From positions 56,627-95,642 of the forward strand of contig JABABM010000007.1 in the NCBI GenBank assembly GCA_014238205.1: a stretch of DNA of 39,016 bases, written 5' to 3'. Source of the DNA: Phycisphaerales bacterium (GTDB taxonomy: Bacteria; Planctomycetota; Phycisphaerae; Phycisphaerales; SM1A02). The notes under the pieces are model-generated. The model was not told the origin of the DNA, did not search any database, and worked only from the letters and a program-made list of their open reading frames with translations. A program made the position numbers and the translations under genes. Positions 17,148 to 39,016 of the stretch are shown here, piece by piece. Each line of letters opens with the position of its first letter. Positions within the stretch are counted from its first letter, which is position 1.

Positions 17148-17567
17148 TCAGTCGATCGCGTCTGCAATGGCCTGTGCCAGCTGCTCGCCGTCTTCCAGCG
17201 GTCCGCTGTTCCATTCGATGTCCAGTCCCGAGCCGTCCTCATGCCTGGGAATGATGTGCACGTGCACATGGAAGACGGCCTGGTGGGCCGGGACGCCGTT
17301 GTTCTGCAGCAGGTTGTAGTGCTTGCAGCCGGTGGCGGCCATGACGGCCTTGCAGAGTCCTGGCAGCACGCGTCCGAGGGCGGCGGCGGAGTCCTCGGAC
17401 AACTCGTGCATGAAGCGGGCCCGTTCCCTGGGGATCACCAGTACGTGGCCACGGCTGAGAGGGCCGATGTCCAGGAAGGCCAGCACGTGGTCGTTCTCGT
17501 ATACACGGTGACAGGGAATGTCCCCGGCGAGGATGGCATCGAAGATGGTGGGGTCGTGTTCACTCAT
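17148..17567 (-). CDS. HIT family nucleotide hydrolase/transferase
   Basis: A 139-residue histidine-triad protein. The triad HVHVHII is at residues 100-106 (His100, His102, His104). Earlier family regions are IFDAILAGDIPCHRVYEND and LSRGHVLVIPRE. HIT proteins cleave or transfer nucleoside phosphates such as AMP-lysine or AMP-amidates; the physiological substrate here is unknown. Its ATG overlaps the stop of the upstream transporter gene by 4 bases, so they form a coupled pair. It ends 3 bases from the convergent ppdK. Confidence 0.93.
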   Translation of the reverse strand: MSEHDPTIFDAILAGDIPCHRVYENDHVLAFLDIGPLSRGHVLVIPRERARFMHELSEDSAAALGRVLPGLCKAVMAATGCKHYNLLQNNGVPAHQAVFHVHVHIIPRHEDGSGLDIEWNSGPLEDGEQLAQAIADAID

Positions 17568-18397
17568 CGGTAGTCCCCGGGCCCCGGGTCGGCCAGGTGT
17601 CGCTGCTCGGCATTCGGATCGATCTCAAGATACCTGCTGAGCCGGCGCACCAGGAAGTAGAAGGGGATGGTGTCCAGCAGCGCGATGAGGAACTTGAACA
17701 CGTAGCCGGTCGCGATGAGCATCAGGATGAAGGCGCCAGGGCTGGACTTGTCGGCCATCATGGCGTCGAACCCTCCAAGCCACCACGTGATGAGCACGAC
17801 TGCAACCGTGTCGATCAACTGGCTGGCGAGAGTGGACCCGTTGTTGCGGAGCCAGAGATGCCGTCCCTTGGTGAGTTTCTTCCAGAAGTGGAACATCCAG
17901 ACATCGGTGAATTGCGCCATCATGTAGGCGGCCATGGAGGCGATTGTCGCGCCGAAGGCGAAGGCTCTGACCTCGTAGAACACGGGCACACGACCGGCCT
18001 CGTCGGTTGCAAGCATGCCGGTCGTTGCGTCGATGGTCTCGAAGCCCGGCAGGATGCCTCCGATCCAGAGGATGAACAGGACCCAGGCGTTGAGCAGCAG
18101 CCCGACCCACACCACGGCGTTGGCACGCGCCCGGCCGTAGAGTTCGCTGATCAGGTCCGTGCAGAGAAAGGTCACAGGGTAGGGCAGTACGCCCACTGCT
18201 ACGGCGATCGGCAAAGGACCCCACTGCTCGGTCGGGATCTCGCCGAACGTGATGAACCGGAGAATGCCCAGGATGTTCAGCATCGCCAATGTTCCGAGGA
18301 ACAGGCCGGCTATGACGAGAAAGACACGCTCACGGCGTGCGTGCAGGGCCGAGGCCTCGATGGGATGAAGTTCAGGGGCGTGGTTGCTGACGGACAC
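17564..18397 (-). CDS. YhhQ/DUF165-family queuosine precursor transporter
   Basis: An inner-membrane protein of about 277 residues with six or more hydrophobic segments. Family features are ALAMLNILGILRFITFG-like first helix content, PYPVTFLCTDLISELYGRARA, and ASQLIDTVAVVLITWWLGG; the paired 'TDLISE.YG' and 'SQ.iDt' motifs are typical of YhhQ. The E. coli member imports queuosine precursors for tRNA modification. The frame extends to 19003 antisense to nadC, which is not credible. GTG 18397, just before VSVSNHAPELHP, is the first start clear of nadC, but it has no good Shine-Dalgarno. Coupled to the HIT gene downstream. Confidence 0.88.
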   Translation of the reverse strand: MSVSNHAPELHPIEASALHARRERVFLVIAGLFLGTLAMLNILGILRFITFGEIPTEQWGPLPIAVAVGVLPYPVTFLCTDLISELYGRARANAVVWVGLLLNAWVLFILWIGGILPGFETIDATTGMLATDEAGRVPVFYEVRAFAFGATIASMAAYMMAQFTDVWMFHFWKKLTKGRHLWLRNNGSTLASQLIDTVAVVLITWWLGGFDAMMADKSSPGAFILMLIATGYVFKFLIALLDTIPFYFLVRRLSRYLEIDPNAEQRHLADPGPGDYR

Positions 18398-18433
18398 GGG
18401 ACCAGAGGATAGGCTTCCCGGTTCGAGGTGCCA

Positions 18434-19384
18434 ATGCCACTGACTGATTTCAACCAACTCCCACTGACCGAGTGTGCACGACAGCTCGTTTCCGACGCCG
18501 TCGTCTGCCGCTTGATGGAGACCGCCTTCGGGGAGGACGGCTTCTTCGAGGGTGACATCACGACCTTGTCGATCATTCCAGAGGGTCGCGATGTCGAAGC
18601 GACCTTCGTTGCAAGGCAGCCGGGCGTCGTTGCAGGCCTTTCGATTCTCCAGCGTTCCACCGGGCTTTCTCCCATGGATGGTCGCCTGGAGATCGTGCCT
18701 GCCATTGAAGACGGACAGCACGTGAAACCCGAAGAGACCATCGGGCACATCCGTGGACCATGGCGAGATGTCCTCGCCTGCGAACGGGTGCTTCTGAACC
18801 TGCTCTCGCGACTCAGTGGAGTTGCAACGCAGACTGCTCGGTACGTGTCGGCAGTCAAGGATGTCGCACCCGATGTCCTCGTCTGCGATTCCCGCAAGAC
18901 CACGCCCGGCCTGCGACTGCTCGAGAAGTATGCCGTGCGCTGTGGTGGCGGACACCTGCATCGAATCGGGCTGCATGACGCGATCATGTACAAGGACAAT
19001 CATCTTGTCGCCATCGGTAATGCAGACCTCGGCGAATCCTTGAAGAGTGCGATCAAAATGGCTCGAGCCGATCGACCCTTGCGTTTCGTCTGCGTCGAGG
19101 TTGATCGACTTGACCAGCTAGATGAGGTCCTTGCGATGGATGAAGGACTCGTTGACATCGTGCTGCTGGACAACATGGACTGCGCCGACCTTCGCATCGG
19201 TGTTGAACGACGCAATGCCTCCGGACGTTCACTCATCCTGGAGGCTTCCGGCGGCGTGACGCTTGAGACCGTGGCGGACATCGCCCGGACCGGCGTGGAT
19301 CGCATCGCGGTCGGAGCGATGACCCATGGAGTGAAATGGCTCGACATCGGGCTGGACATCCAGCCGGGCGTCGACCGGGCATGA
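18434..19384 (+). CDS. nadC: Nicotinate-nucleotide pyrophosphorylase (carboxylating)
   Basis: Converts quinolinate and PRPP to nicotinate mononucleotide in de novo NAD synthesis. Motifs of the QPRTase family are present: EGDITT near residue 39, ACERVLLNLLSRLSGVAT near 115, CDSRKTTPGLRLLEKYAVRCGGG near 152-175 (read as DSRKTTPG then KYAVRCGGG), and EASGGV near 270. ATG 18434 has GAGG 5 nt upstream; a GTG lies two codons earlier. At 316 residues it is slightly longer than usual. nadA and nadB are not in the window. It overlaps birA by ATGA and heads the long plus-strand run that continues to 27.5 kb. Confidence 0.95.
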   Translation: MPLTDFNQLPLTECARQLVSDAVVCRLMETAFGEDGFFEGDITTLSIIPEGRDVEATFVARQPGVVAGLSILQRSTGLSPMDGRLEIVPAIEDGQHVKPEETIGHIRGPWRDVLACERVLLNLLSRLSGVATQTARYVSAVKDVAPDVLVCDSRKTTPGLRLLEKYAVRCGGGHLHRIGLHDAIMYKDNHLVAIGNADLGESLKSAIKMARADRPLRFVCVEVDRLDQLDEVLAMDEGLVDIVLLDNMDCADLRIGVERRNASGRSLILEASGGVTLETVADIARTGVDRIAVGAMTHGVKWLDIGLDIQPGVDRA

Positions 19385-20442: not shown

Positions 20443-20825
20443 AGGAATGGTTCCGGCATGCCTTTGCGGTCGAGGTCGACGCTGAACTCATCGTGGATGA
20501 TGAATGCGAGGCCATCATCGACAAGCTTGCACACGAGATCGTTCGACGACGTCTCACGACACCGGCACTCCTGGCATTGGAAATGGGTCGGCCCTTGAAC
20601 TACATCGGCTCCCAGGCCATGGTGTTCATGCAGCCGATCGTGTCCGTTCTCTTCGATACGAAGGGATACGAGGCCTTTGCCCGTTTCATGGAGCAACGCA
20701 AGTCGGTTGATTACCTCTGTGATCGAATCGAACAGGCTGAAGCCGATTCGATCGCGAAACAAAACGATTCGGACACGACAACGCCCACGGCGGATTCTTC
20801 AGGGGAATGTCATGACGAAGATTGA
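20439..20825 (+). CDS. Small helical protein of the GlmL-like cluster
   Basis: A 128-residue soluble, mainly helical protein. The core, about residues 38-95, contains RRRLTTPALLALEMGRPL, then SQAMVFMQPIVSVLF and a helix with FMEQRKSVDYLCDRIEQ. The last 25 residues are acidic, Thr/Ser-rich and probably disordered. I recall similar small proteins with an 'PA...LE...PL...GSQ' core in other bacteria but cannot assign a function. Its start overlaps the PH-like gene (ATGA), and its last 14 bases overlap the GlmL-like gene in another frame. That tight coupling suggests the products are needed in fixed ratio. Confidence 0.75.
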   Translation: MKEWFRHAFAVEVDAELIVDDECEAIIDKLAHEIVRRRLTTPALLALEMGRPLNYIGSQAMVFMQPIVSVLFDTKGYEAFARFMEQRKSVDYLCDRIEQAEADSIAKQNDSDTTTPTADSSGECHDED

Positions 20826-22644
20826 TCTTGAATCGATCAACGTGATTCTCGCAACAGATTGCGGGAGTACGACGACGAAGGCGATTCTCATCCAGAAGAT
20901 TGATGGTGAATATCGCCAGACGCACCGTGGGGAGGCGCCCACGACCGTCGAAAAGCCCTTCGCGAACGTGACAATCGGTGTCGCCAATTCCGTGACGGAG
21001 GTCGGGGAACTTGCCGGACGGAAACTGGTGTCCGACGAGGGCACGATCATCCAGCCCGCTTCGGACAACGAAGGATGTGACCTGTACATCTCGACGTCCT
21101 CGGCTGGCGGTGGCCTGCAGATGATGGTTGCGGGGGTGATTGCCGAGATGACTGCTGCCAGCGCAAAGCGGGCGGCGCTCGGGGCCGGTGCCATCGTCAT
21201 GGACGTCATTTCAAGCAATGACAAGCGGCGTCCGCACGAGCAGATCCAGCGGATCAGGGAACTTCGACCGGACATGATTCTCGTCTCGGGTGGTACGGAT
21301 GGGGGGACTACGGAGAAGGTCGTTGAACTGGCTGAACTGATAGCTCCTGCCAAGCCACAGCCCAGATTCGGCAGCGAGTACCTCATGCCGGTCATCTACG
21401 CCGGGAACAAGGATGCCAGGGGAAACATCGAGGACACCCTCGGGATCGACTGGATCGATCTTGCAGTCGTCGACAATCTCCGACCCGTACTTGAACATGA
21501 AAACCTCGGCCCGGCTCGCGACAAGATCCACGATGTATTTCTCGAGCACGTCATGGCGCACGCTCCGGGCTATGACATGCTGATGGATTGGACGGACGCC
21601 CCGATCATGCCCACGCCGGGCGCCGTGGGCGACATACTCCAGACGATCGCGTCCCAGCGCGGCATCAATGTCGTCGGGGTCGACATCGGTGGAGCAACGA
21701 CCGACGTGTTCTCCGTGTTCAACGAGACGTTCAACCGGACGGTCTCTGCGAATCTCGGCATGAGTTACTCGATCTCGAATGTCTGCGCCGAGGCGACCCT
21801 TCCGAATGTGCTCCGCTGGGTGCATTTCGACATGGATGAGCGTGAACTTCGCAACCGCGTCAAGAACAAGATGATCCGTCCCACGACCATTCCCCAGTCG
21901 CACGAGGCACTCGTCTTTGAACAGGCCGTCGCACGCGAGGCCCTTCGTCTTGCGTACAAGCAGCACAAGGAGTTCGCTACGACGTTGAAGGGTGTTCAAC
22001 AGCAGCGAACGGTGGGCGACACCTTCAGCCAGCAGTCCAGTGGCCAGACGATCGTCAACAACATGGAACTGGATCTCCTGGTTGCATCAGGTGGTGTTCT
22101 TTCACATGCTCCACGAATGCACCAGACGGCGATGCTGCTCATCGATGCCTTCGAGCCGGAGGGCGTGACCACGCTTGCCAAGGATTCGATCTTCATGATG
22201 CCGCACCTTGGCGTCCTCTCCTCCGTGCACCCCAAGGCAGCCGGCGAGGTCTTCGAGCGGGATTGTCTGGTCTTCCTTGGGACCTGCGTTGCTGCAAAGG
22301 GACTTGGGAAGCATGGCAAGCCGTGCTTCACCTATTCAATCGAGGGTGCCATCTCGGCATCAGGCTCGTTGAACTTTGGTGATCTCGAGTTGCTTCCTCT
22401 TGGCCAGGATGAAGTTGCAACCATTACCTGTGAACCTGCAAAGGGATACGATCTTGGCGAAGGTCCTGGCAAGAAGGTTGTTCGTGAGGTTCGCGGTGGC
22501 ACGGTCGGCCTGATCCTTGATGCACGGGGGCGACCGCTGGCTCTGCCCGATGAGCGAGCAGCCTGCCAGAAAACGATTGAACAATGGACCGAGGCCCTGG
22601 AGTTGTATCCAGCGGCCAGTGCACCAGAGCCCGTAGGGGCCTGA
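20812..22644 (+). CDS. GlmL/MutL-family ASKHA ATPase
   Basis: A 610-residue protein of the actin/Hsp70-like (ASKHA) fold. Phosphate-1 is DCGSTTTK at residues 16-23, and phosphate-2 is VDIGGATTDVF at about 290-300. The central region, RRPHEQIQRIREL, then LVSGGTDGG and MPVIYAGNKDARG, is characteristic of the 'glutamate mutase L' family. The founding member is linked to repair of the B12-dependent glutamate mutase in clostridia; it is unrelated to DNA mismatch repair MutL. No mutase subunit or B12-binding motif (DxHxxG) is encoded nearby. The frame opens at 20677, but ATG 20812 with AGGGGA upstream starts just before the ATPase core. Probably a partner of the surrounding membrane proteins. Confidence 0.85.
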   Translation: MTKIDLESINVILATDCGSTTTKAILIQKIDGEYRQTHRGEAPTTVEKPFANVTIGVANSVTEVGELAGRKLVSDEGTIIQPASDNEGCDLYISTSSAGGGLQMMVAGVIAEMTAASAKRAALGAGAIVMDVISSNDKRRPHEQIQRIRELRPDMILVSGGTDGGTTEKVVELAELIAPAKPQPRFGSEYLMPVIYAGNKDARGNIEDTLGIDWIDLAVVDNLRPVLEHENLGPARDKIHDVFLEHVMAHAPGYDMLMDWTDAPIMPTPGAVGDILQTIASQRGINVVGVDIGGATTDVFSVFNETFNRTVSANLGMSYSISNVCAEATLPNVLRWVHFDMDERELRNRVKNKMIRPTTIPQSHEALVFEQAVAREALRLAYKQHKEFATTLKGVQQQRTVGDTFSQQSSGQTIVNNMELDLLVASGGVLSHAPRMHQTAMLLIDAFEPEGVTTLAKDSIFMMPHLGVLSSVHPKAAGEVFERDCLVFLGTCVAAKGLGKHGKPCFTYSIEGAISASGSLNFGDLELLPLGQDEVATITCEPAKGYDLGEGPGKKVVREVRGGTVGLILDARGRPLALPDERAACQKTIEQWTEALELYPAASAPEPVGA

Positions 22645-22663
22645 GTCAGGTTGGAGCAGAGCA

Positions 22664-23794
22664 ATGGCCCATGCATATACCCCGGGATTGAAGGTAACGA
22701 GCCACATGGCGTACAGCGTCAAGCGGATCCTTCCCATCAAGGGAGACGTCCTGGTTTCCGTTGGTGACCAGGTCCAGGCAGACCAGGTTGTTGCCGAGAC
22801 TTCGATGCCCGGTGACATCTACCCGATGAACCTTGCAAACATGCTTGCCGTGCCACCATCCGATGTGGCCGAGTGCCTCCTGAAGAAGGAAGGCGACAGC
22901 GTGGACCTGGATGAGCCTATCGCCAAGACCAAGGGCCTGTTTGGAATGATGAAGAAGACCATTCAGTCCAAGTACACGGGCACGATTGAAACGATCTCGA
23001 ATGTGACCGGACAGGTCATTCTTCGAGGGGCGCCCATCCCGGTGCAGGTCAAGGCCTACGTGACTGGAAAAGTCGTCGAGGTTCTGGACGGTGAGGGCTG
23101 TGTCATCGATGCGGACTGCAGTTACATGCAGGGCATCTTCGGCGTCGGCGGGGAGACATGTGGTCCGATCCGCATGGTTGGTTCGGCTCATGATGAACCC
23201 CTTGAGGCATCTTCCATTTCGGAGGACATGTCCGGAACTATCGTGGTCGGTGGCGGCCGAATGACGGCTGCAGCCATCAAGAAGGCGAGGGATGTCGGAG
23301 CCGTTGCAATCGTGGCCGGTGGCATCGACGACCAGGATCTCAGGGACTTTCTCGGGTACGACCTTGGCGTCGCCATTACCGGCTCGGAGAAATTGGGCAT
23401 CACGATCGTGATCACCGAGGGCTTCGGGGACATCGCGATGGCCCGGCAGACCTGGGGCCTTCTTTCCTCCCGGGAAGGCCGTGAAGCCTCGATCAACGGG
23501 GCGACCCAGATCAGGGCGGGAGTGATGCGACCCGAGATCATCGTGCCCCATGGAGATGCTGCTCCTCCAACGACTTCAGACCTCGATTCCGTCGAGGAAG
23601 GTCTCCTCGTGGAGGGCCGCCCAGTGAGAATTATCAGGGATCCCTACTTCGGAGTCATCGGGTCCGTGGCCGGTCTTCCCTCGGAACCACAGGTCCTCGA
23701 CTCGGGATCCAAGGCACGCGTACTTGAAGTCAAGCTCGATTCCGGAGAGAGTGTTGTCATTCCACGGGCCAATGTGGAACTCATCGAGGAATAA
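22664..23794 (+). CDS. Barrel-sandwich/KOW-like protein of the GlmL-like cluster
   Basis: A 376-residue soluble protein with three apparent parts. Residues 1-150 hold repeats of the 'G.V.V..G..V..D..VA' kind (KGDVLVSVGDQVQADQVVAE) seen in biotinyl/lipoyl barrel-sandwich and membrane-fusion proteins, without the AMKM lysine site. Residues about 180-300 look like an alpha/beta domain (VVGGGRMTAAAIKKARDVGA, ITIVITEGFGDIAMARQ). Residues about 312-376 read like a KOW/SH3 barrel (EGRPVRIIRDPYFGVIGSV, then VIPRANVELIEE). GGAG precedes the ATG by 7 nt. The gene starts 19 bases after the GlmL-like stop and ends 8 bases before the DUF6754-like gene. Function unknown; probably a scaffold or adaptor. Confidence 0.7.
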   Translation: MAHAYTPGLKVTSHMAYSVKRILPIKGDVLVSVGDQVQADQVVAETSMPGDIYPMNLANMLAVPPSDVAECLLKKEGDSVDLDEPIAKTKGLFGMMKKTIQSKYTGTIETISNVTGQVILRGAPIPVQVKAYVTGKVVEVLDGEGCVIDADCSYMQGIFGVGGETCGPIRMVGSAHDEPLEASSISEDMSGTIVVGGGRMTAAAIKKARDVGAVAIVAGGIDDQDLRDFLGYDLGVAITGSEKLGITIVITEGFGDIAMARQTWGLLSSREGREASINGATQIRAGVMRPEIIVPHGDAAPPTTSDLDSVEEGLLVEGRPVRIIRDPYFGVIGSVAGLPSEPQVLDSGSKARVLEVKLDSGESVVIPRANVELIEE

Positions 23795-23802
23795 GGAACT
23801 CC

Positions 23803-24780
23803 ATGCTTCGACGACATTGGGCAATGATCCTGGGACTTACGACGCTCTTCCTGGCGACAGGCACTGCATTCGCCACTGCAGGTGGAGCGACGGGTTCGGA
23901 CGTTGCACATGAGTGGAACCTCCTTGAAGAACTCTTCAATCCAAAGAAGACATGGCTGCTGATCTGGTTCATTCTCATCAGCGGGGTCGTCGTCTACTAC
24001 ATCCGCGTCGCATCCAGTGGCAAGGACCTGAAGGTTCGCGAGATCGCCGGTCTGTCGGCGGTGGATGAAGCAGTTGGCCGTGCAACCGAAATGGGCCGTC
24101 CGGTGCTCTTCATCAACGGCATCCTCGACATCAATGACATCCAGACGCTTGCCGGTATCACGGTACTCTCCCGCGTAGCTCGTACGGCAGCCGAGTACGG
24201 CGCCGACCTGGAAGTTCCCACGTGTCGAGCGCTTGTCATGACGACCGCACGTGAAACGGTCCAGGAAGCCTACCTGGCTGCCGGTCGCCCTGATGCGTAC
24301 AACGAGGACAGGATCTACTACCTCACGGATGAACAGTTCGGGTACGTTGCCGGTGTCACTGGAACAATGGTCCGTGACAAGCCCGCCGCCTGCATCTACA
24401 TGGGCGCCTTCTATGCCGAGTCGCTCATCCTTGCCGAGACGGGAAACCACATTGGCGCCATCCAGGTTGCCGGGACGGCCATGCCATCCCAGCTGCCATT
24501 CTTCGTGGCTGCGTGCGACTACACCCTCATAGGTGAGGAGTTCTTCGCTGCAAGCGCCTACCTGTCCGGCGACCCGAAACAGATGGGTTCACTGAAGGGC
24601 CAGGACATGGGCAAGCTCATCGGTGCTTTCGGGATCATCCTGGGGGTCCTCATGGCGACCTTGTCCGTCCTCTTCGGAGGTGGCATCTTCGAGACCGTGC
24701 TTGTCTATCTTTCCGAGTACATGTTCGGTGACGACGGATTCCTCATGACCATCATTCTCATGGCGGGGGGTGGTGGATGA
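23803..24780 (+). CDS. DUF6754-like membrane protein
   Basis: A 325-residue protein with an N-terminal signal-like segment (about 8-25), a membrane helix at about 45-64 (KTWLLIWFILISGVVVYY) and a large soluble domain of about 195 residues. It ends with one or two further membrane helices (about 270-292 and 310-323) and a Gly-rich end. Conserved-looking features of the soluble domain are VLFINGILDINDIQT, CRALVMTTARETVQEAY and YMGAFYAESLILAETG. I assign DUF6754 from memory of this pattern. No catalytic motif is recognised. Its last codons overlap the next gene by 4 bases. Confidence 0.7.
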   Translation: MLRRHWAMILGLTTLFLATGTAFATAGGATGSDVAHEWNLLEELFNPKKTWLLIWFILISGVVVYYIRVASSGKDLKVREIAGLSAVDEAVGRATEMGRPVLFINGILDINDIQTLAGITVLSRVARTAAEYGADLEVPTCRALVMTTARETVQEAYLAAGRPDAYNEDRIYYLTDEQFGYVAGVTGTMVRDKPAACIYMGAFYAESLILAETGNHIGAIQVAGTAMPSQLPFFVAACDYTLIGEEFFAASAYLSGDPKQMGSLKGQDMGKLIGAFGIILGVLMATLSVLFGGGIFETVLVYLSEYMFGDDGFLMTIILMAGGGG

Positions 24781-25502
24781 AGCGAACGGTCCCACTGCTC
24801 ATCGCGATGTTCGCAGGCATCATGCTCCTCGCATCGACCTTCATTCCCTTGACGGAAACCTGGGGTGAGACGGTCACGATCTGGTTCGACATCCTTGCGG
24901 TCGGTGCATTCGTGCTTGGAGGTGGAAACCTGCTGAAGATCCACCTTGAGAAGATCTCGAGCAAGCGAAGTGGTTGGGCCTTCTCGGTCGTGACACTTCT
25001 TGCATTCGTCATCACGCTCTGGGTCGGCCTTGTGCAGTGGGGTGTGAATCCACCGAAGCTCTACCCGACCCATTCCTGGGCCGGTAACTACATCGAGGAA
25101 GGCTCAGGCCTCTTCTGGATCTACGACAACGTTGTCTATCCGTTGACGGCAACGATGTTCGCCATGCTCGCCTTCTACGTCGCTTCGGCGGCGTTCCGGG
25201 CGTTCCGTGCGAAGAACATCGAGGCCACCCTGCTGCTCTTCACCGCATTCATCGTCCTGCTTGGCCGGACGTATGCCGGTGTCTTCCTGACGGATTGGGT
25301 GCCGGGATTCATGGCGATGATCACGGGGATGACGCCTGAGCATTTCAACACCATGCAGCTTGACGAGTTGACCGGCTGGATCATGAATGCTCCGAACAAG
25401 GCGGGCAACAGGGCCATCACCATCGGGATCGCGCTGGGCGTGGTTTCCTATTCATTGAAGATCCTCATGGGCGTGGATCGTTCCTACCTGGGGCAGGATT
25501 GA
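24777..25502 (+). CDS. Six-helix membrane protein of the GlmL-like cluster
   Basis: A 241-residue integral membrane protein with about six hydrophobic segments (near residues 5-22, 36-52, 65-85, 112-140, 150-170 and 212-228). The loop between segments 3 and 4 carries GVNPPKLYPTHSWAGNYIEE. I recognise no named family. It starts within the stop of the DUF6754-like gene (ATGA) and is followed after two bases by the next gene, so it is part of the same coupled run. Most likely a membrane subunit of a complex. Confidence 0.7.
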   Translation: MKRTVPLLIAMFAGIMLLASTFIPLTETWGETVTIWFDILAVGAFVLGGGNLLKIHLEKISSKRSGWAFSVVTLLAFVITLWVGLVQWGVNPPKLYPTHSWAGNYIEEGSGLFWIYDNVVYPLTATMFAMLAFYVASAAFRAFRAKNIEATLLLFTAFIVLLGRTYAGVFLTDWVPGFMAMITGMTPEHFNTMQLDELTGWIMNAPNKAGNRAITIGIALGVVSYSLKILMGVDRSYLGQD

Positions 25503-25504
25503 CC

Positions 25505-26359
25505 ATGTACGAGTTCCTCAAGAATCTCGATCGCCGCTGGATCTTTCTGCTGATGCTCCTGGCCGTCTCCTTTCCGATTCTCGGCAGGTGGTCCTTCCCC
25601 GAGAAGATCTCCCCGATGGTGCATGATGTCTTTGCAGCCATTGAAGAATTGCCGGAGGGCTCGAAGGTCCTGATCTCCTTCGACTACGACCCGGGTTCGC
25701 AGGGTGAACTCCAGCCAATGGCCTCCGCCTTCACACGGCACTGTGCAGAGAAGAAGTTCAAGATGTACTTCCTCTGTCTCTGGCCGTTGGGCGAACCCAT
25801 GATCGAGAAGTCGACCAACCTTCTGAAGAAGGAATATCCGGACTTGAAGTACGGAGAGGATTTCATGAGTTTCGGCTTCAAGGCTGGTGGCGAAGGCGTT
25901 ATCAAGGTCATTGTCACCAACATGCGGGAGTTGATTCCCACCGACCAGTTCGGGACCGGGCTCGACAACATCCCGATGACCAAGGGCATCCAGAACATCC
26001 AGCAGATGGATCTGATCATCAATGTCTCGGCTGGTGACCCCGGAACCAAGCAGTGGGTGCAGTTCGCTTCAACGCCGTATGACCTCCTGACAGTTTCGGG
26101 ATGCACCGGTGTCCAGGCGCCATTGCTCTACCCATACATTCCAAAGCAGCTTCGAGGTCTGCTTGGGGCAATCAAGGGGGCTGCCGAGTACGAGCAGGCC
26201 ATCGATGAGCACTACCCGAAGATTGCTGCAATGCCCGAGGCCCAGGAAGCAAAGCAGCGGATGGGGGCACAACTCGTGGCCCACATACTCATGGTGATTC
26301 TCATCATCGTCGGGAACATCGTCTACTTCGTCGGTCGCAAGAGGGGGGATGCCCGATGA
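25505..26359 (+). CDS. Bitopic membrane protein with large soluble domain, GlmL-like cluster
   Basis: A 284-residue protein: basic N-terminus (MYEFLKNLDRRW), a membrane helix at about 13-28, a soluble domain of about 220 residues and a C-terminal membrane helix at about 256-276 followed by GRKRGDAR. The soluble part has an alternating alpha/beta look (GSKVLISFDYDPGSQGELQPM, KMYFLCLWPLGEP, MDLIINVSAGDPGTKQWVQF). With RRW/RKR flanks at both ends inside, the soluble domain should face the periplasm. ATG 25505 follows AGGATTGACC; an in-frame TTG lies two codons earlier. It overlaps the next gene by 4 bases. I know no function for it. Confidence 0.72.
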   Translation: MYEFLKNLDRRWIFLLMLLAVSFPILGRWSFPEKISPMVHDVFAAIEELPEGSKVLISFDYDPGSQGELQPMASAFTRHCAEKKFKMYFLCLWPLGEPMIEKSTNLLKKEYPDLKYGEDFMSFGFKAGGEGVIKVIVTNMRELIPTDQFGTGLDNIPMTKGIQNIQQMDLIINVSAGDPGTKQWVQFASTPYDLLTVSGCTGVQAPLLYPYIPKQLRGLLGAIKGAAEYEQAIDEHYPKIAAMPEAQEAKQRMGAQLVAHILMVILIIVGNIVYFVGRKRGDAR

Positions 26360-27486
26360 AGCAATCACAGTTGATCTGGCTCCTGATCTTCGTCGTCGGC
26401 GGCATCTTCCTTGCATGGCGTGTTTCAACGACTGACATGGGTCGAGTCTGGCACCATCCCGAAAGACAGATTCACCAGCAGAATGAAGATGGTTCGTGGT
26501 CCGAGGTCGAGCTGTCTCCTTCTCGAAAGTTCGACCTGCATGATGATGGGGACCTGGAAGCCAACCAGGAGGGGTGGAATACCTGGACTGTCCTCAAGAA
26601 CAGGAAGGGCTTCAACGAATCATTCGGAACGTCCCTGGCCACGGCTGGGATGGATCCGGAACTCGTACATGACCCTGTCGCCGCACAAGCTGCGATTGAC
26701 GGGAACCCGGACATGTCGGATGCAGACCGTGAGGTTCTGCAATCCATGGCTCTCATGTCGGAAGACTTCATCCTGAGCCCTGGACGCACTTTTGGCCTGT
26801 GGCTCTCGGCGTTCTTCACCCTGTGCATCATGTCATTCCTCTACAAGGACAACCCCTTCTACAAGTTCGCCGAAGCAGTTGTCATCGGCGCATCTGCCGC
26901 CTATGTCATGGCAGTTGGTTTCTGGACGATGCTGGTGAAGAACCTCTTCAGCAATCTCGCACCGGGCTTGATGAGGGAAACATTCATCCCGGGCTTGCCG
27001 GAGGAAATCGTATTCAATGGCTGGTATCTCGTGCCGGCTTTGTTCACCATTTTCCTGCTGTGGCGATTGATGCCGATGGGGGGCTGGATCAGCCGCTGGC
27101 CACTTGCCTTCTTCATCGGAATCACAGCCGGCCTTCGACTGATCGCCTTCCTCGAGGCCGACTTCATGGCCCAGATATCCGCGACCATGATTCCCCTGTG
27201 GGTTTCTGTCCAGGATGCCGCGGGTTCGATGATGCTCTGGGATTCGGTCTGGGCTTCCTTCACGAACATCATCATCATCGTGGCGACCATGACCGGGCTC
27301 GTGTACTTCTTCTTCTCCGTCGAGCACAAGGGTGCAGTTGGCGGGGCGGCGCGAGTGGGCATCTGGTTCCTGATGATCACATTCGGTGCCAGTTTCGGGT
27401 ACACCGTCATGGGCCGTATTGCCCTGCTTGCAGAGCGGCTTCAGTACCTCTTTGGTAACTGGCTCCACTTGACGCCACCAACCTGA
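26356..27486 (+). CDS. Polytopic membrane protein closing the GlmL-like cluster
   Basis: A 376-residue protein with a hydrophobic N-terminal segment (about 4-20). A polar region of about 120 residues follows and is rich in charged residues. Then come roughly six membrane segments starting near residue 137 (TFGLWLSAFFTLCIMSFL). Notable loops are MRETFIPGLPEEIVFNGWY and DAAGSMMLWDSVWASF. No family is recognised. It begins in the preceding stop (ATGA) and is the last gene before a 159-bp gap, which marks the end of the run that started with nadC. The N-terminal polar region is probably extracytoplasmic. Confidence 0.7.
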   Translation: MKQSQLIWLLIFVVGGIFLAWRVSTTDMGRVWHHPERQIHQQNEDGSWSEVELSPSRKFDLHDDGDLEANQEGWNTWTVLKNRKGFNESFGTSLATAGMDPELVHDPVAAQAAIDGNPDMSDADREVLQSMALMSEDFILSPGRTFGLWLSAFFTLCIMSFLYKDNPFYKFAEAVVIGASAAYVMAVGFWTMLVKNLFSNLAPGLMRETFIPGLPEEIVFNGWYLVPALFTIFLLWRLMPMGGWISRWPLAFFIGITAGLRLIAFLEADFMAQISATMIPLWVSVQDAAGSMMLWDSVWASFTNIIIIVATMTGLVYFFFSVEHKGAVGGAARVGIWFLMITFGASFGYTVMGRIALLAERLQYLFGNWLHLTPPT

Positions 27487-34190: not shown

Positions 34191-34883
34191 CTAGAAGGGC
34201 ATGTTCAATCCGGTGTAGACGTAGATACTGTCTCGCCCCGGGTTGTTGCTGTAGAGACCGGCGTTGGAGATGTGGTGCCAGCGGACACCCAGGAACCAAC
34301 GATTGTTGTTGCCTACGTCCCAGGTGACGCCGATTCCAGCCTGGGGTGTGAAGTTGAACTCCGATCCGCCTGGAGGGACGTCGTCGGTCGAGCCGAGCAG
34401 GCCGACGCCCGCATCAGCGTAGAGCGACCAGGTGTCATAACGGAGGAAGTGCCATTCAAAGAGCAGGTCCAGGCCGCCACCGAAGGCGTCACCGCGGTCC
34501 TGGAAGAAGCCGAACAACTTCAGTTCAGGGGCGAAGGCGAACGAATCAACGATGAAATATTCCCATTTCACGCCGAAGGCGATTTCCTGGTCGTTGTCGT
34601 GCTTGATATCGATTCCCCAGCCTCCAAGCAGAGCCCATCTCTGGGAACCTTCGGAGGCGAAGGTGGGGGTCGCTTCGGCGGCTCCTGCCCGCTTGTCTTC
34701 CTGGAACGCTGCAGGGGCGATCCGCAAATCGGATGTCAACTGCGATTCAAGGGAGGCTAGCAAGGCCTCTTCCTCGGCAAGGAATCGGTCTGTTGCCGAC
34801 GGAAGGGAGCTGCCGGTGTTGAGCGTAAAGTCGGGTACAGCAAGGATCGAACTGCTGCACAGTACTGCTGTCTGTAGGATCAT
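34191..34883 (-). CDS. PagL-like lipid A 3-O-deacylase (acyloxyacyl hydrolase family)
   Basis: A 230-residue predicted outer-membrane beta-barrel. The second half alternates in hydrophobicity, ends in Phe, and carries the signature WHHISNAGL followed by NNPGRDS. In Pseudomonas PagL the triad is His126/Ser128/Glu140. Here His204 and Ser206 align, and the residue 12 after the serine is Asp218 instead of Glu. The family removes the 3-O acyl chain of lipid A. The N-terminus is only weakly signal-like, followed by a Glu-rich helix and a linker. A strong GGAGG lies 6 nt before ATG 34883, so the start is good. It is 39 bases downstream of the nucleoside phosphorylase-like gene. Confidence 0.75.
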   Translation of the reverse strand: MILQTAVLCSSSILAVPDFTLNTGSSLPSATDRFLAEEEALLASLESQLTSDLRIAPAAFQEDKRAGAAEATPTFASEGSQRWALLGGWGIDIKHDNDQEIAFGVKWEYFIVDSFAFAPELKLFGFFQDRGDAFGGGLDLLFEWHFLRYDTWSLYADAGVGLLGSTDDVPPGGSEFNFTPQAGIGVTWDVGNNNRWFLGVRWHHISNAGLYSNNPGRDSIYVYTGLNMPF

Positions 34884-35814: not shown

Positions 35815-36549
35815 GTGACCTGGGTATCTCTTGTCATCCTTCTTTTCTTCTCGCCTCCCTGGCCGGGTCCACCGCCATGGATGGAATCCTCCGCACTGGC
35901 AGGTGCAGAAGATGACAGTGACATTCCGGATGAGTCGTTCTTCGTGCTTGTCGATCATGTGCGATCCTGGCCGGAGGGTGCTCGTACTCCAGGTGTTCGC
36001 CTTGAAGTGGCTCGTGAAGATCTGCTGAAGGATCCTGCGAGTCACCGTGGTCTCCTGCTTGTCATCGAGGGGCGGATCGAGCAGCATCGTGACCTGGGCC
36101 CTCCATTTGAAGATGTACAGGAGTGGTTCGTGCGTGACATGGCAGGTGATCCGTGGATTGTCTACGTCGTTGGTGAAGGGAATGGGACAACAAGGGATGG
36201 CCAGGGGGTGATCCTGGAAGCTCACTTCTACAAGAGGATGCTTCTTGAAGACCGGTCGGGGATTCAGCGTGCATACCCGGCACTTGCCGGGGCTTTCCCG
36301 ATCGTCCTGCCTGTTGAAGGCACATCACCGGTGGCTGGTGGTGTCGCCGGGCTCTGGGCGATCCTTGCCATTCTCGCTGGAGCGCTGCTCCTGGTGATGC
36401 TCCTTGCGAGGAGGGCCGCAGGACAGCCGGCAAGTCGTCGTGCTATCGTTCACAGTGAGGACTCGCTGCCGCCGGATCCTCCACTGCCGGGTGAGGCCGA
36501 TGAGGCCCTGCGGGAGTTGAAGCGGCGTGGACATGATGAGAGCACATGA
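35815..36549 (+). CDS. Exported protein with C-terminal membrane helix, unknown function
   Basis: A 244-residue protein. An N-terminal hydrophobic segment (about 3-17) resembles a signal peptide, followed by an acidic stretch. A beta-rich soluble domain spans about 38-160 (ESFFVLVDHVRSWPEG, LLLVIEGRIEQHRD, ILEAHFYKRMLLED). A membrane helix (about 175-198) and a charged cytoplasmic tail of about 45 residues follow. The start is GTG 35815 with AGGGA 8 nt before it. I do not recognise a family; the soluble part could be an OB-like barrel. It is coupled to aroB by an ATGA overlap, which is probably transcriptional convenience. Confidence 0.75.
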   Translation: MTWVSLVILLFFSPPWPGPPPWMESSALAGAEDDSDIPDESFFVLVDHVRSWPEGARTPGVRLEVAREDLLKDPASHRGLLLVIEGRIEQHRDLGPPFEDVQEWFVRDMAGDPWIVYVVGEGNGTTRDGQGVILEAHFYKRMLLEDRSGIQRAYPALAGAFPIVLPVEGTSPVAGGVAGLWAILAILAGALLLVMLLARRAAGQPASRRAIVHSEDSLPPDPPLPGEADEALRELKRRGHDEST

Positions 36550-37652
36550 GCAACCTGCGTGTGAATTGTCCTGGTGGGTCCTATGACGTCCTGGTCGAAC
36601 CCGGTGGACTCCAGTCGCTGGGTGGATACGTGGAATCCCTCCTTGGTCCTGCACGCTGCCTGCTCATAGCAGATTCAAATGTTGCTTCGACCCATGCAGC
36701 CCTGGCACGAGATTCGCTTGAAGCTGCTGGCATCAAGGCGAGTCTCCACCTGGTCGATGCGTGTGAGTCGAACAAGCGACTGTCGACCGTCGAGAGTTCG
36801 ATGTCATCGGCACTTGATGCGGGCCTGGGCCGCAGTGATTGCATTGTTTCGATTGGTGGGGGATTGGTCGGTGACGTCGCGGGATTCGCGGCTGCCTCCT
36901 TCCTCCGTGGCATTGCTCTGGTCCAGGTGCCCACGACCCTGCTCGCGATGGTTGATGCTTCCATCGGTGGCAAGACTGGAGTCAACCTGGTTCTGCCTGG
37001 AAGTGAGGACCTTGGCAAGAACCTGGCCGGCGCCTTCTGGCAGCCGCGACTGGTCCTCGCTGATCCGGAGGTGCTGGCAACGCTCGATGAGCGCGAACGT
37101 CGCTGCGGTCTTGCAGAATGCGTCAAGCATGGTCTCATCGGTGATCCCCAGCTGTTGTCGGTGCTGTCCGACGACCTCGAATGTCTGCTGGCGGCGGATC
37201 CTGGGGCAACAGCCAGGCTCATAGAACGCGCGGCGAAGGTGAAGATCGGAATCGTCGAGGAAGACGAGCGGGAATCAGGGCGGCGAGCCATCCTGAACCT
37301 CGGTCATACCTTTGCGCATGCCATCGAGACCGACAAGGCGTTGGACCTGAAGCATGGAGAGGCAGTGTCGATCGGACTCATGGCGGCAACGTCCCTGGCG
37401 GAGCTCCGTGGCATGATCGAGGGAGACTGGGTTGACGATCTGCGGAGCCTCCTTGGCAGGATCGGCCTCCCCCTGGAACTTCCACTTGCCCGTGATCCAG
37501 CCGAACTGATTGCACGGATGCGTTTTGACAAGAAGGTCCGCTCCGGGCAGCACCGATTGATTCTCCCTGTCTCCCCGGGAAGAGTCGAGTGCATCGACGA
37601 TATCGACGAGGACTCCATCCACCATGCGTGGATGCAGGTGATGCCTTCCTGA
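36546..37652 (+). CDS. aroB: 3-dehydroquinate synthase
   Basis: Second enzyme of the shikimate pathway: DAHP to 3-dehydroquinate, NAD- and divalent metal-dependent. Motifs: SIGGGLVGDVAGFAAASFLRG near 100-120 (NAD/phosphate region), QVPTTLLAMVDASIGGKTGVN near 127-147 (in order), ECVKHGLIGD near 195 and LNLGHTFAHAIE near 250-261 with metal-binding histidines. 368 residues, standard length. ATG 36546 overlaps the upstream stop. No other aro gene is nearby; pabB at 13 kb uses the same pathway's product, chorismate. Confidence 0.96.
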   Translation: MSNLRVNCPGGSYDVLVEPGGLQSLGGYVESLLGPARCLLIADSNVASTHAALARDSLEAAGIKASLHLVDACESNKRLSTVESSMSSALDAGLGRSDCIVSIGGGLVGDVAGFAAASFLRGIALVQVPTTLLAMVDASIGGKTGVNLVLPGSEDLGKNLAGAFWQPRLVLADPEVLATLDERERRCGLAECVKHGLIGDPQLLSVLSDDLECLLAADPGATARLIERAAKVKIGIVEEDERESGRRAILNLGHTFAHAIETDKALDLKHGEAVSIGLMAATSLAELRGMIEGDWVDDLRSLLGRIGLPLELPLARDPAELIARMRFDKKVRSGQHRLILPVSPGRVECIDDIDEDSIHHAWMQVMPS

Positions 37653-37761: not shown

Positions 37762-39016
37762 GTGCGTACCGTTGCGATCGTCAACCAGAAGGGTGGCTGT
37801 GGGAAGACGACGACCGCCATCAACCTGGCCTCGGTGCTTGCCGGTCGGGGGACGCGGACGCTGCTTGTGGACATGGATCCACAGTCGCACTGTGCCGCGG
37901 GACTCGGTGTTCCTGAATCCTGCATCGAGTCGGGCATTGCCGAGGCGATGCTGTCGAACCTTGACCAGGGGTTTGAAGCGGGCAACAAGTTGTGGGAAGT
38001 GTCGCGTGGTCTGGATCTCCTGCCCAGCACCATGATGCTTGCAGGTCTCGAGTCGCCTGATGGAGGCTTGTACTCACTGCCGGACCGGGACCGGCGTCTT
38101 GCGAAGGTCCTGGCCCATGTTTCACCTCGATACGACATCTGCCTCGTGGACTGTTCACCCTCGATCGGCCTGTTGACCTACAACGCGCTCAGGGCGGCAA
38201 CCCAGGCGCTCATCCCGGTTGAAACGGGGTATTTCTCTCTTCGTGGTGCCAAGAGGCAGTGGGGCACGATCCAGTCGTTGATCGAGCGAATCGGGCGACC
38301 CATCGAGTGCTCGATGTTGCCAACGCTCCACAATCCCGACTCGCGTCTTTCTACACGTATCCTTGATGCGCTTGGCCAACACTTCCCCGATCACCTGCTG
38401 CCACTGGTGATCCGCGAACATGAACCACTGAGGGAAGCGGCGAGTCTCGGGCAGCCCATCACGGAATTTGCGCCAGGCTCGGAGGCCGAGCGTGACTTCC
38501 TGGATCTTGCCGACTGGTTGCTTGCACTTGAACCGCCCCCGATGCGACTGAGCGACCTCGATCGACCCAGTTCCTCCACGGCGCCTCCACCCGAAGCCAG
38601 GGCCAATACCAGGGTCGGTGAACTGGCCATGCGGATGCAGGTTGGCCTGAAGCAGGAAACCTCGACCCCTCCGACACCCGAGTCGGCACCAAGTTCGGTT
38701 GTCGATGAACCAGTCGTGTCCATCATGACTCCACCCGGTGGGAACATGACTTTCGGTGTCATCCAGTCGGAACTGGGCACCTGTTTCAAGCAACCTGGAC
38801 AGCCGGAACAGAGTCTTGCCATCTCCGGGGATTTCAACGGCTGGTCGACGTCGGCTACCCCGATGAGATATGACAGGGCGTCCGGGATGTTTGAAGCCAC
38901 CGTTCCACTCCCACCGGGGCGATATCGCTACCAGGTCGTTGTGGATGGACGAAGCCAGGTGGATGCCTACAACGACCAGGTGATCACGGGGGAGACCGGC
39001 GCCCGGACGAGTTGCT
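37762..39016 (+). CDS. ParA-type ATPase fused to a glycogen-binding (CBM48/AMPK-beta-like) domain (partial)
   Basis: The frame opens at GTG 37762 and is still open at the window edge after 418 codons. Residues 1-260 form a ParA/Soj ATPase: deviant Walker A KGGCGKTT at 10-17 with the signature Lys10, Walker A' LLVDMDPQSHCA near 35-46, and Walker B CLVDCSPSIGLLTYNAL near 128. A proline/serine-rich linker follows (about 260-335). Residues about 340-415 match the early-set glycogen-binding fold: ISGDFNGWS near 355-363, then PLPPGRYRYQVVVDG. ParA proteins position DNA or protein cargos; CBM48 domains bind alpha-glucans or serve as protein modules. The start has AGGG close upstream and AAGGAG 11 nt upstream. 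Follows aroB by 109 bases. Confidence 0.85.
   Translation, partial: MRTVAIVNQKGGCGKTTTAINLASVLAGRGTRTLLVDMDPQSHCAAGLGVPESCIESGIAEAMLSNLDQGFEAGNKLWEVSRGLDLLPSTMMLAGLESPDGGLYSLPDRDRRLAKVLAHVSPRYDICLVDCSPSIGLLTYNALRAATQALIPVETGYFSLRGAKRQWGTIQSLIERIGRPIECSMLPTLHNPDSRLSTRILDALGQHFPDHLLPLVIREHEPLREAASLGQPITEFAPGSEAERDFLDLADWLLALEPPPMRLSDLDRPSSSTAPPPEARANTRVGELAMRMQVGLKQETSTPPTPESAPSSVVDEPVVSIMTPPGGNMTFGVIQSELGTCFKQPGQPEQSLAISGDFNGWSTSATPMRYDRASGMFEATVPLPPGRYRYQVVVDGRSQVDAYNDQVITGETGARTSC

Follow-up and report, generated by a model that had tools for sequence, protein, structure and literature searches.

A ParA-type ATPase gene with a fused CBM48-like domain and its FlhG-like downstream partner in Phycisphaerae: a candidate intracellular positioning module

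The window, the whole stretch of 39,016 nucleotides analysed here, reaches the terminus of contig C76, which has 95,642 bases and belongs to a 2.44-Mb genome assembly that is about 95% complete and of Phycisphaerales type. A single open frame, referred to here as parA-CBM, runs from a GTG at position 37762 to the contig end and encodes a ParA core, a linker and an early-set domain. The ParA core with signature lysine, the linker and the CBM48-like domain, all described in the earlier note, are present at 37762-39016 of the window. The C-terminus, for which that note had pointed to the adjoining contig, is indeed supplied by contig C11: this contig carries the frame on to ...ARTSC-FEIESNPSP-stop, so that the last nine residues are encoded there (L153:16-42) and the full protein has 427 amino acids, as in relatives. 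The stop codon of parA-CBM overlaps the start codon of the downstream gene, c0, as ATGA, and parA-CBM and c0 form a conserved two-gene module. The order parA-CBM, c0 is uninterrupted in L033, a complete relative of 93% identity. The features of the locus are listed in Table 1.

Table 1. Features of the parA-CBM locus (window positions unless a contig or locus is named).
Feature	Position	Strand	Remarks
aroB (3-dehydroquinate synthase)	36546..37652	+	TIGR01357 4.8e-96, above cut-off; upstream neighbour
ParA/Soj-type ATPase domain, residues 1-255	37762..38526	+	Pfam AAA_31, Soj fold, motifs
Pro/Ser-rich low-confidence linker, residues 256-330	38527..38751	+	pLDDT 40-69 in L033 model
Linker helix TRVGELAMRMQ	38608..38652	+	motif [ST]R[AV]xE[LIV]xxR; kept with or without CBM
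AMPK-beta-type CBM48/early-set domain, residues 331-418	38752..39015	+	Pfam, PDB matches
16-base overlap	39001..39016	+	last 16 window bases identical to first 16 of contig C11
c0	L153:42-1292 (contig C11, same genome)		directly downstream of parA-CBM; about 415 aa

The one-frame fusion of ParA and CBM was found in 47 of 61 relatives searched; the others comprise ten complete orthologues lacking the CBM, three genes cut by contig ends, and one genome (G028) without an orthologue. Elsewhere in the same class, families f7 and f9 contribute four genomes that carry it too. A sequencing frameshift joining two genes, which the earlier note had named as one possible objection, is therefore excluded, as is a chimera, as the fusion recurs in one frame across the class Phycisphaerae. 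The distribution rests on these 61 relatives, the four f7 and f9 genomes and the best 80 of 200 relatives from a scan of genome contigs; almost all of these 80 are labelled Phycisphaerae or Planctomycetota, and a few MAG titles among them name other taxa. Both marine and freshwater Phycisphaerae bacteria carry the fusion. A literature search for ParA with CBM48, a glycogen-binding domain or an isoamylase early set found nothing relevant.

The upstream neighbour aroB is usual and not constant (cluster c2, in 43 of 80 loci from the best 80 of 200 relatives). The flanks change with lineage and include aroB, LpxK-like, ClpB-like and DnaJ-like genes (named by eye); no conserved cargo gene was found near parA-CBM beyond c0. 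Several other genes of the window were recorded in passing. A same-strand run at 20677-27486 contains a MutL (PF13941, glutamate-mutase type), a weak biotin/lipoyl match and a DUF6754 protein, and three proteins at 24777-27486 have no Pfam match. On the minus strand at 17564-19003, a Vut_1 transporter match is limited to residues 270-450 of a 479-residue frame, whose N-terminal 270 residues are without assignment, or whose true start lies further in. The minus-strand gene at 34191-34883, which close relatives likewise have next to fabF, is predicted to encode a beta-rich, outer-membrane-like protein, lipid A deacylase-like as judged by eye only.

The N-terminal 178 residues of ParA-CBM match AAA_31 (Pfam, 6e-40). 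The ATPase motifs are a Walker A of KGGCGKTT with the signature Lys10, a Walker A' of DMDPQ and a Walker B of LVDCSP. Among 97 homologues the first two, and the third as D-C-S/P-P, are invariant or nearly so; N8 to T17 (except position 13), D37, D39 to Q41, D130 and P133 are invariant. The AlphaFold model of L033 (pLDDT 87.5) consists of a ParA core, a disordered linker and a C-terminal beta-sandwich, and the ATPase domain matches Soj structures by Foldseek at 1e-22 to 1e-20, with an rmsd of 2.1-2.4 and 33-34% identity. PHROGs place the ATPase in a generic partition family, and PADLOC returned one match limited to the P-loop. Judged from its sequence, the gene encodes an intact deviant-Walker ATPase of the Soj type. 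Soj uses certain arginines for DNA contact. The Soj stretch around IPRNVRLAEAPSFG corresponds to IREHEPLREAASLG in ParA-CBM, where basic residues are shifted, not simply lost; nucleoid binding by ParA-CBM is uncertain for this reason.

The closeness of the ATPase domain to Soj would fit a ParA of chromosome segregation, or of plasmid partition. The genome has its own ParB, but it is encoded on contig C22, about 12.5 kb from a second, plain ParA (C22:62071) and not near parA-CBM. No ParB_N match was found beside parA-CBM in the window genome or its relatives, and the chromosomal housekeeping genes around parA-CBM vary. A role in segregation or partition is thus quite unlikely.

In the L033 model, residues 299-329 of the linker have a pLDDT under 50, and residues 284-297 form a helix. 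This helix carries the sole clearly conserved part of the linker, a motif (Table 1) found in its strict form in 80 of 97 sequences and as variants in most of the remainder. Orthologues that lack the CBM (e.g. L083, L097 and L099) retain the motif near their C-terminus, which makes it a better candidate than the CBM for an essential docking site.

The C-terminal domain matches two Pfam families above their gathering scores, AMPK1_CBM at residues 351-412 (4.6e-8) and CBM_48 at residues 351-396 (4.3e-6). The best PDB matches of the window CBM are to the glycogen-binding domain (GBD) of AMPK beta (5.6e-5), and the canonical form of the family's CBM matches the glycogen-binding domain of the AMPK beta subunit at 1e-7. 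The sugar-contact positions of AMPK, which we take to be W100, K126, W133, L146, T148 and N150, are occupied by W, R, W, F/Y, E and N in many relatives; the two sugar-platform tryptophans (equivalents of W100 and W133) occur together in 57 of 86 sequences. The window CBM has W, Q, S, T, A and T at these positions. Mapped on a ParA-domain tree, the CBM is ancestral, because it is present in the outgroup families; five changes in CBM presence are needed, of which at least three are forced by well-supported branches. ParA and c0 have thus persisted through at least three losses of the CBM.

The CBM48 matches above Pfam cut-offs and the paired tryptophans would agree with the proposal of the earlier note that the CBM binds glycogen or another alpha-glucan and that ParA distributes the granules, as would the presence of a GT3 glycogen synthase in 15 of the 61 genomes. 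The search of these genomes covered GlgA (GT5), GT3 synthase, branching enzyme and phosphorylase, with GH57 and an unknown GT4 synthase lying outside it. GlgA was above cut-off in 2 of 61 genomes, and a bacterial branching enzyme in 7, with distant SBE-like matches (about 200-270 bits) in 22 more; GT3 was absent from the window's own family. No GT5, GT3 or GT35 (phosphorylase) was detected in the window genome, although it does retain a single SBE-like GH13 enzyme of branching type (G000:C78:72669-74396). Four genomes (G010, G013, G024 and G030) have a CBM with the canonical contact residues, yet no GT5, GT3, GT35 or GH13 was detected in them; G010 is a single contig of 99% completeness. Conversely, all nine f1 genomes without the CBM have a branching-type enzyme. 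Fisher tests gave an association of the CBM with branching enzyme in the unexpected direction (p 0.011) and none with synthase (p 0.14). Independent pairs revealed no association between CBM and glycogen genes; they number only three to five, so that the phylogenetic test has no power and the argument rests on the genomes without the pathway. In gene content, then, the pattern of CBM and glycogen genes is opposite to that predicted by granule positioning.

Granule positioning is accordingly not supported, either by the gene content of the window genome or by the four genomes that combine a canonical CBM with no detected pathway, and is very unlikely. Loss of the aromatic glucan-contact residues, which the earlier note had set against its own reading, is found in part: in the window clade W361 is kept and the other five of six contacts are lost. 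The second use suggested there for the domain, as a protein adaptor, is the better of the two: the domain can be lost and shows no tie to alpha-glucan metabolism, and so probably serves as an accessory docking module that takes a protein. A CBM48 annotation alone does not imply glycogen. Because the glycogen reading fits poorly, the module looks like an uncharacterised intracellular positioning system.

The earlier note, limited to the window, could not take account of c0, which lies on contig C11. A match to c0 adjoins parA-CBM in 104 loci. Eight loci have no such match; seven of these are contig ends or an unrelated second ParA, the exception being L071 (ZRK32). Across the 61 relatives c0 was found in 57 at E<=0.001, nearly all as strong matches and a few only as an FlhG-type cross-hit (e.g. 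G031, in which parA is cut by a contig end). An adjacent c0 was not found in L071, G041 or G048; in G023 the downstream ORF resembles a far-diverged c0, by eye only. In family f7, genome G115 has a diverged c0 directly downstream (E 1e-17). The f9 genomes carry parA-CBM and no c0 was found in them; the fusion thus does not depend on c0. Beyond c0 (L153:1350-5807), the closest relatives have genes for a Ser/Thr kinase with TPRs, a DUF2752 protein and a pair of probable lipoproteins, of which one is weakly GNA1162-like; only some members of the family share these genes.

No Pfam, NCBIfam or PHROG match and no PADLOC family was found for c0, and its profile has no sequence relation to that of ParA-CBM. 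The c0 model (pLDDT 84) has two domains. The first is nearest to FlhG/FleN by Foldseek (9.7e-6) and by VIA-align, in which rows 1-7 are all FlhG/FleN (Z 9.4-10.7) and lower rows score 7.8 or less. Profile comparison relates c0 to the genome's own FlhG across the C-terminal half (P 94%) and to PDB FlhG at 8e-4. The second domain, of about 110 residues, is a C-terminal alpha/beta domain that follows a Pro-rich linker. A Walker A motif was found in none of 53 c0 sequences, the P-loop position being taken by a conserved GHLPV(R), and c0 is for this reason not filed as an FlhG.

The fold and profile of c0 would suit a module for flagellar number or placement with c0 resembling FlhG. However, a genuine FlhF-FlhG pair lies elsewhere on contig C11, beside a sigma-factor-like ORF, and the module itself is not near flagellar genes. 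Moreover, G003, G006, G018 and G035 (94-96% complete) keep parA and c0, having neither an FlhF above SRP level nor an FlhG-like cross-hit. A flagellar role is therefore most improbable. The FlhG-type antiactivator FleN binds FleQ (PDB entries), and members of the A/D family such as BcsQ act in assembly complexes; by analogy ParA-CBM and c0 could, instead of positioning a cargo, form a FleN-like regulator that depends on nucleotide and acts on transcription or on an enzyme, with the CBM sensing a sugar. No regulator gene is linked to the module, however, and the CBM site is degenerate in the window clade, so that regulation of this kind is unlikely.

The best reading is a positioning system of ParA type, specific to the class Phycisphaerae, in which a pseudo-FlhG serves as adaptor and the CBM as an optional docking domain; we give it about an even chance. 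It is favoured by the invariant ATPase motifs, the Soj fold, the recurrence of c0 beside the gene amid otherwise variable neighbours, the ATGA overlap of the two genes, the FlhG/FleN fold of c0 without a Walker A, the persistence of ParA and c0 through CBM losses, and the separate location of the canonical ParB, which shares a contig with the second ParA. In bacteria, many large cargos are placed by ParA/MinD ATPases, with varied partner proteins as the link between ATPase and cargo; the diversity of these partners hinders their recognition and leaves many of the ATPases as orphans (PMC10241942). In such a system ParA-CBM would cycle between an ATP dimer and a monomer on the nucleoid. The partner or adaptor c0 would bind ParA-CBM, perhaps through contact of the basic linker helix (RAxELxxR) with the acidic N-terminal helix of c0 (DxLADLF); the C-terminal domain of c0 would carry the cargo, and the CBM/early-set domain would be an accessory module for docking, probably of a protein. 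The association of the two proteins, the adaptor role of c0 and the positioning activity itself are all inferred. Several points count against the positioning reading: known partners use a positively charged, disordered N-terminus (PMC10241942), whereas the N-termini of c0 are mostly acidic; the shifted Soj arginines leave nucleoid binding in doubt; and c0 is missing beside the fusion in the f9 genomes and not adjacent in L071, G041 and G048. More tentatively, and rather doubtfully, an active ParA may be paired with a catalytically dead partner of FlhG/MinD type, maybe with the two A/D-ATPase folds joined in a hetero-complex and the CBM48 acting as an evolvable cargo-docking module, the whole being specific to the Phycisphaerae lineage.

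Here the orphan ATPase extends across the class, its fused domain can be recognised, and its family-specific partner is a degenerate A/D ATPase in its own right. For Planctomycetota, which have an unusual cell organisation, the two genes are a concrete target.

With the Soj/ParA chromosome-partition ATPases (PDB 8ray, 2bek, 6iub) ParA-CBM shares the fold, the deviant Walker A, the signature lysine and about 33% identity; it differs in its C-terminal linker motif and CBM48, in having c0 instead of ParB as partner, and in the shifted DNA-contact arginines. The early-set domain is common to the AMPK beta GBD/CBM48 (PDB 1z0n, 4y0g), and most family members have the W100/W133 equivalents, but here it is fused to ParA and the window member is without five of the six sugar contacts. 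The MinD-like ATPases FlhG/FleN (PDB 4rz2, 5j1j, 8p53) share the fold of c0 residues 38-240 and similarity in the C-terminal half, whereas c0 has no Walker A (0/53), has an extra C-terminal domain of about 110 residues, and adjoins parA-CBM and not flhF. McdA/McdB carboxysome positioning and other orphan A/D ATPases (PMC10241942) likewise have a ParA-type ATPase beside a small family-specific partner gene. Unlike McdA/McdB, the module described here has a partner with an A/D-ATPase fold, no cargo operon nearby, and an ATPase that, in contrast to McdA, carries a fused CBM.
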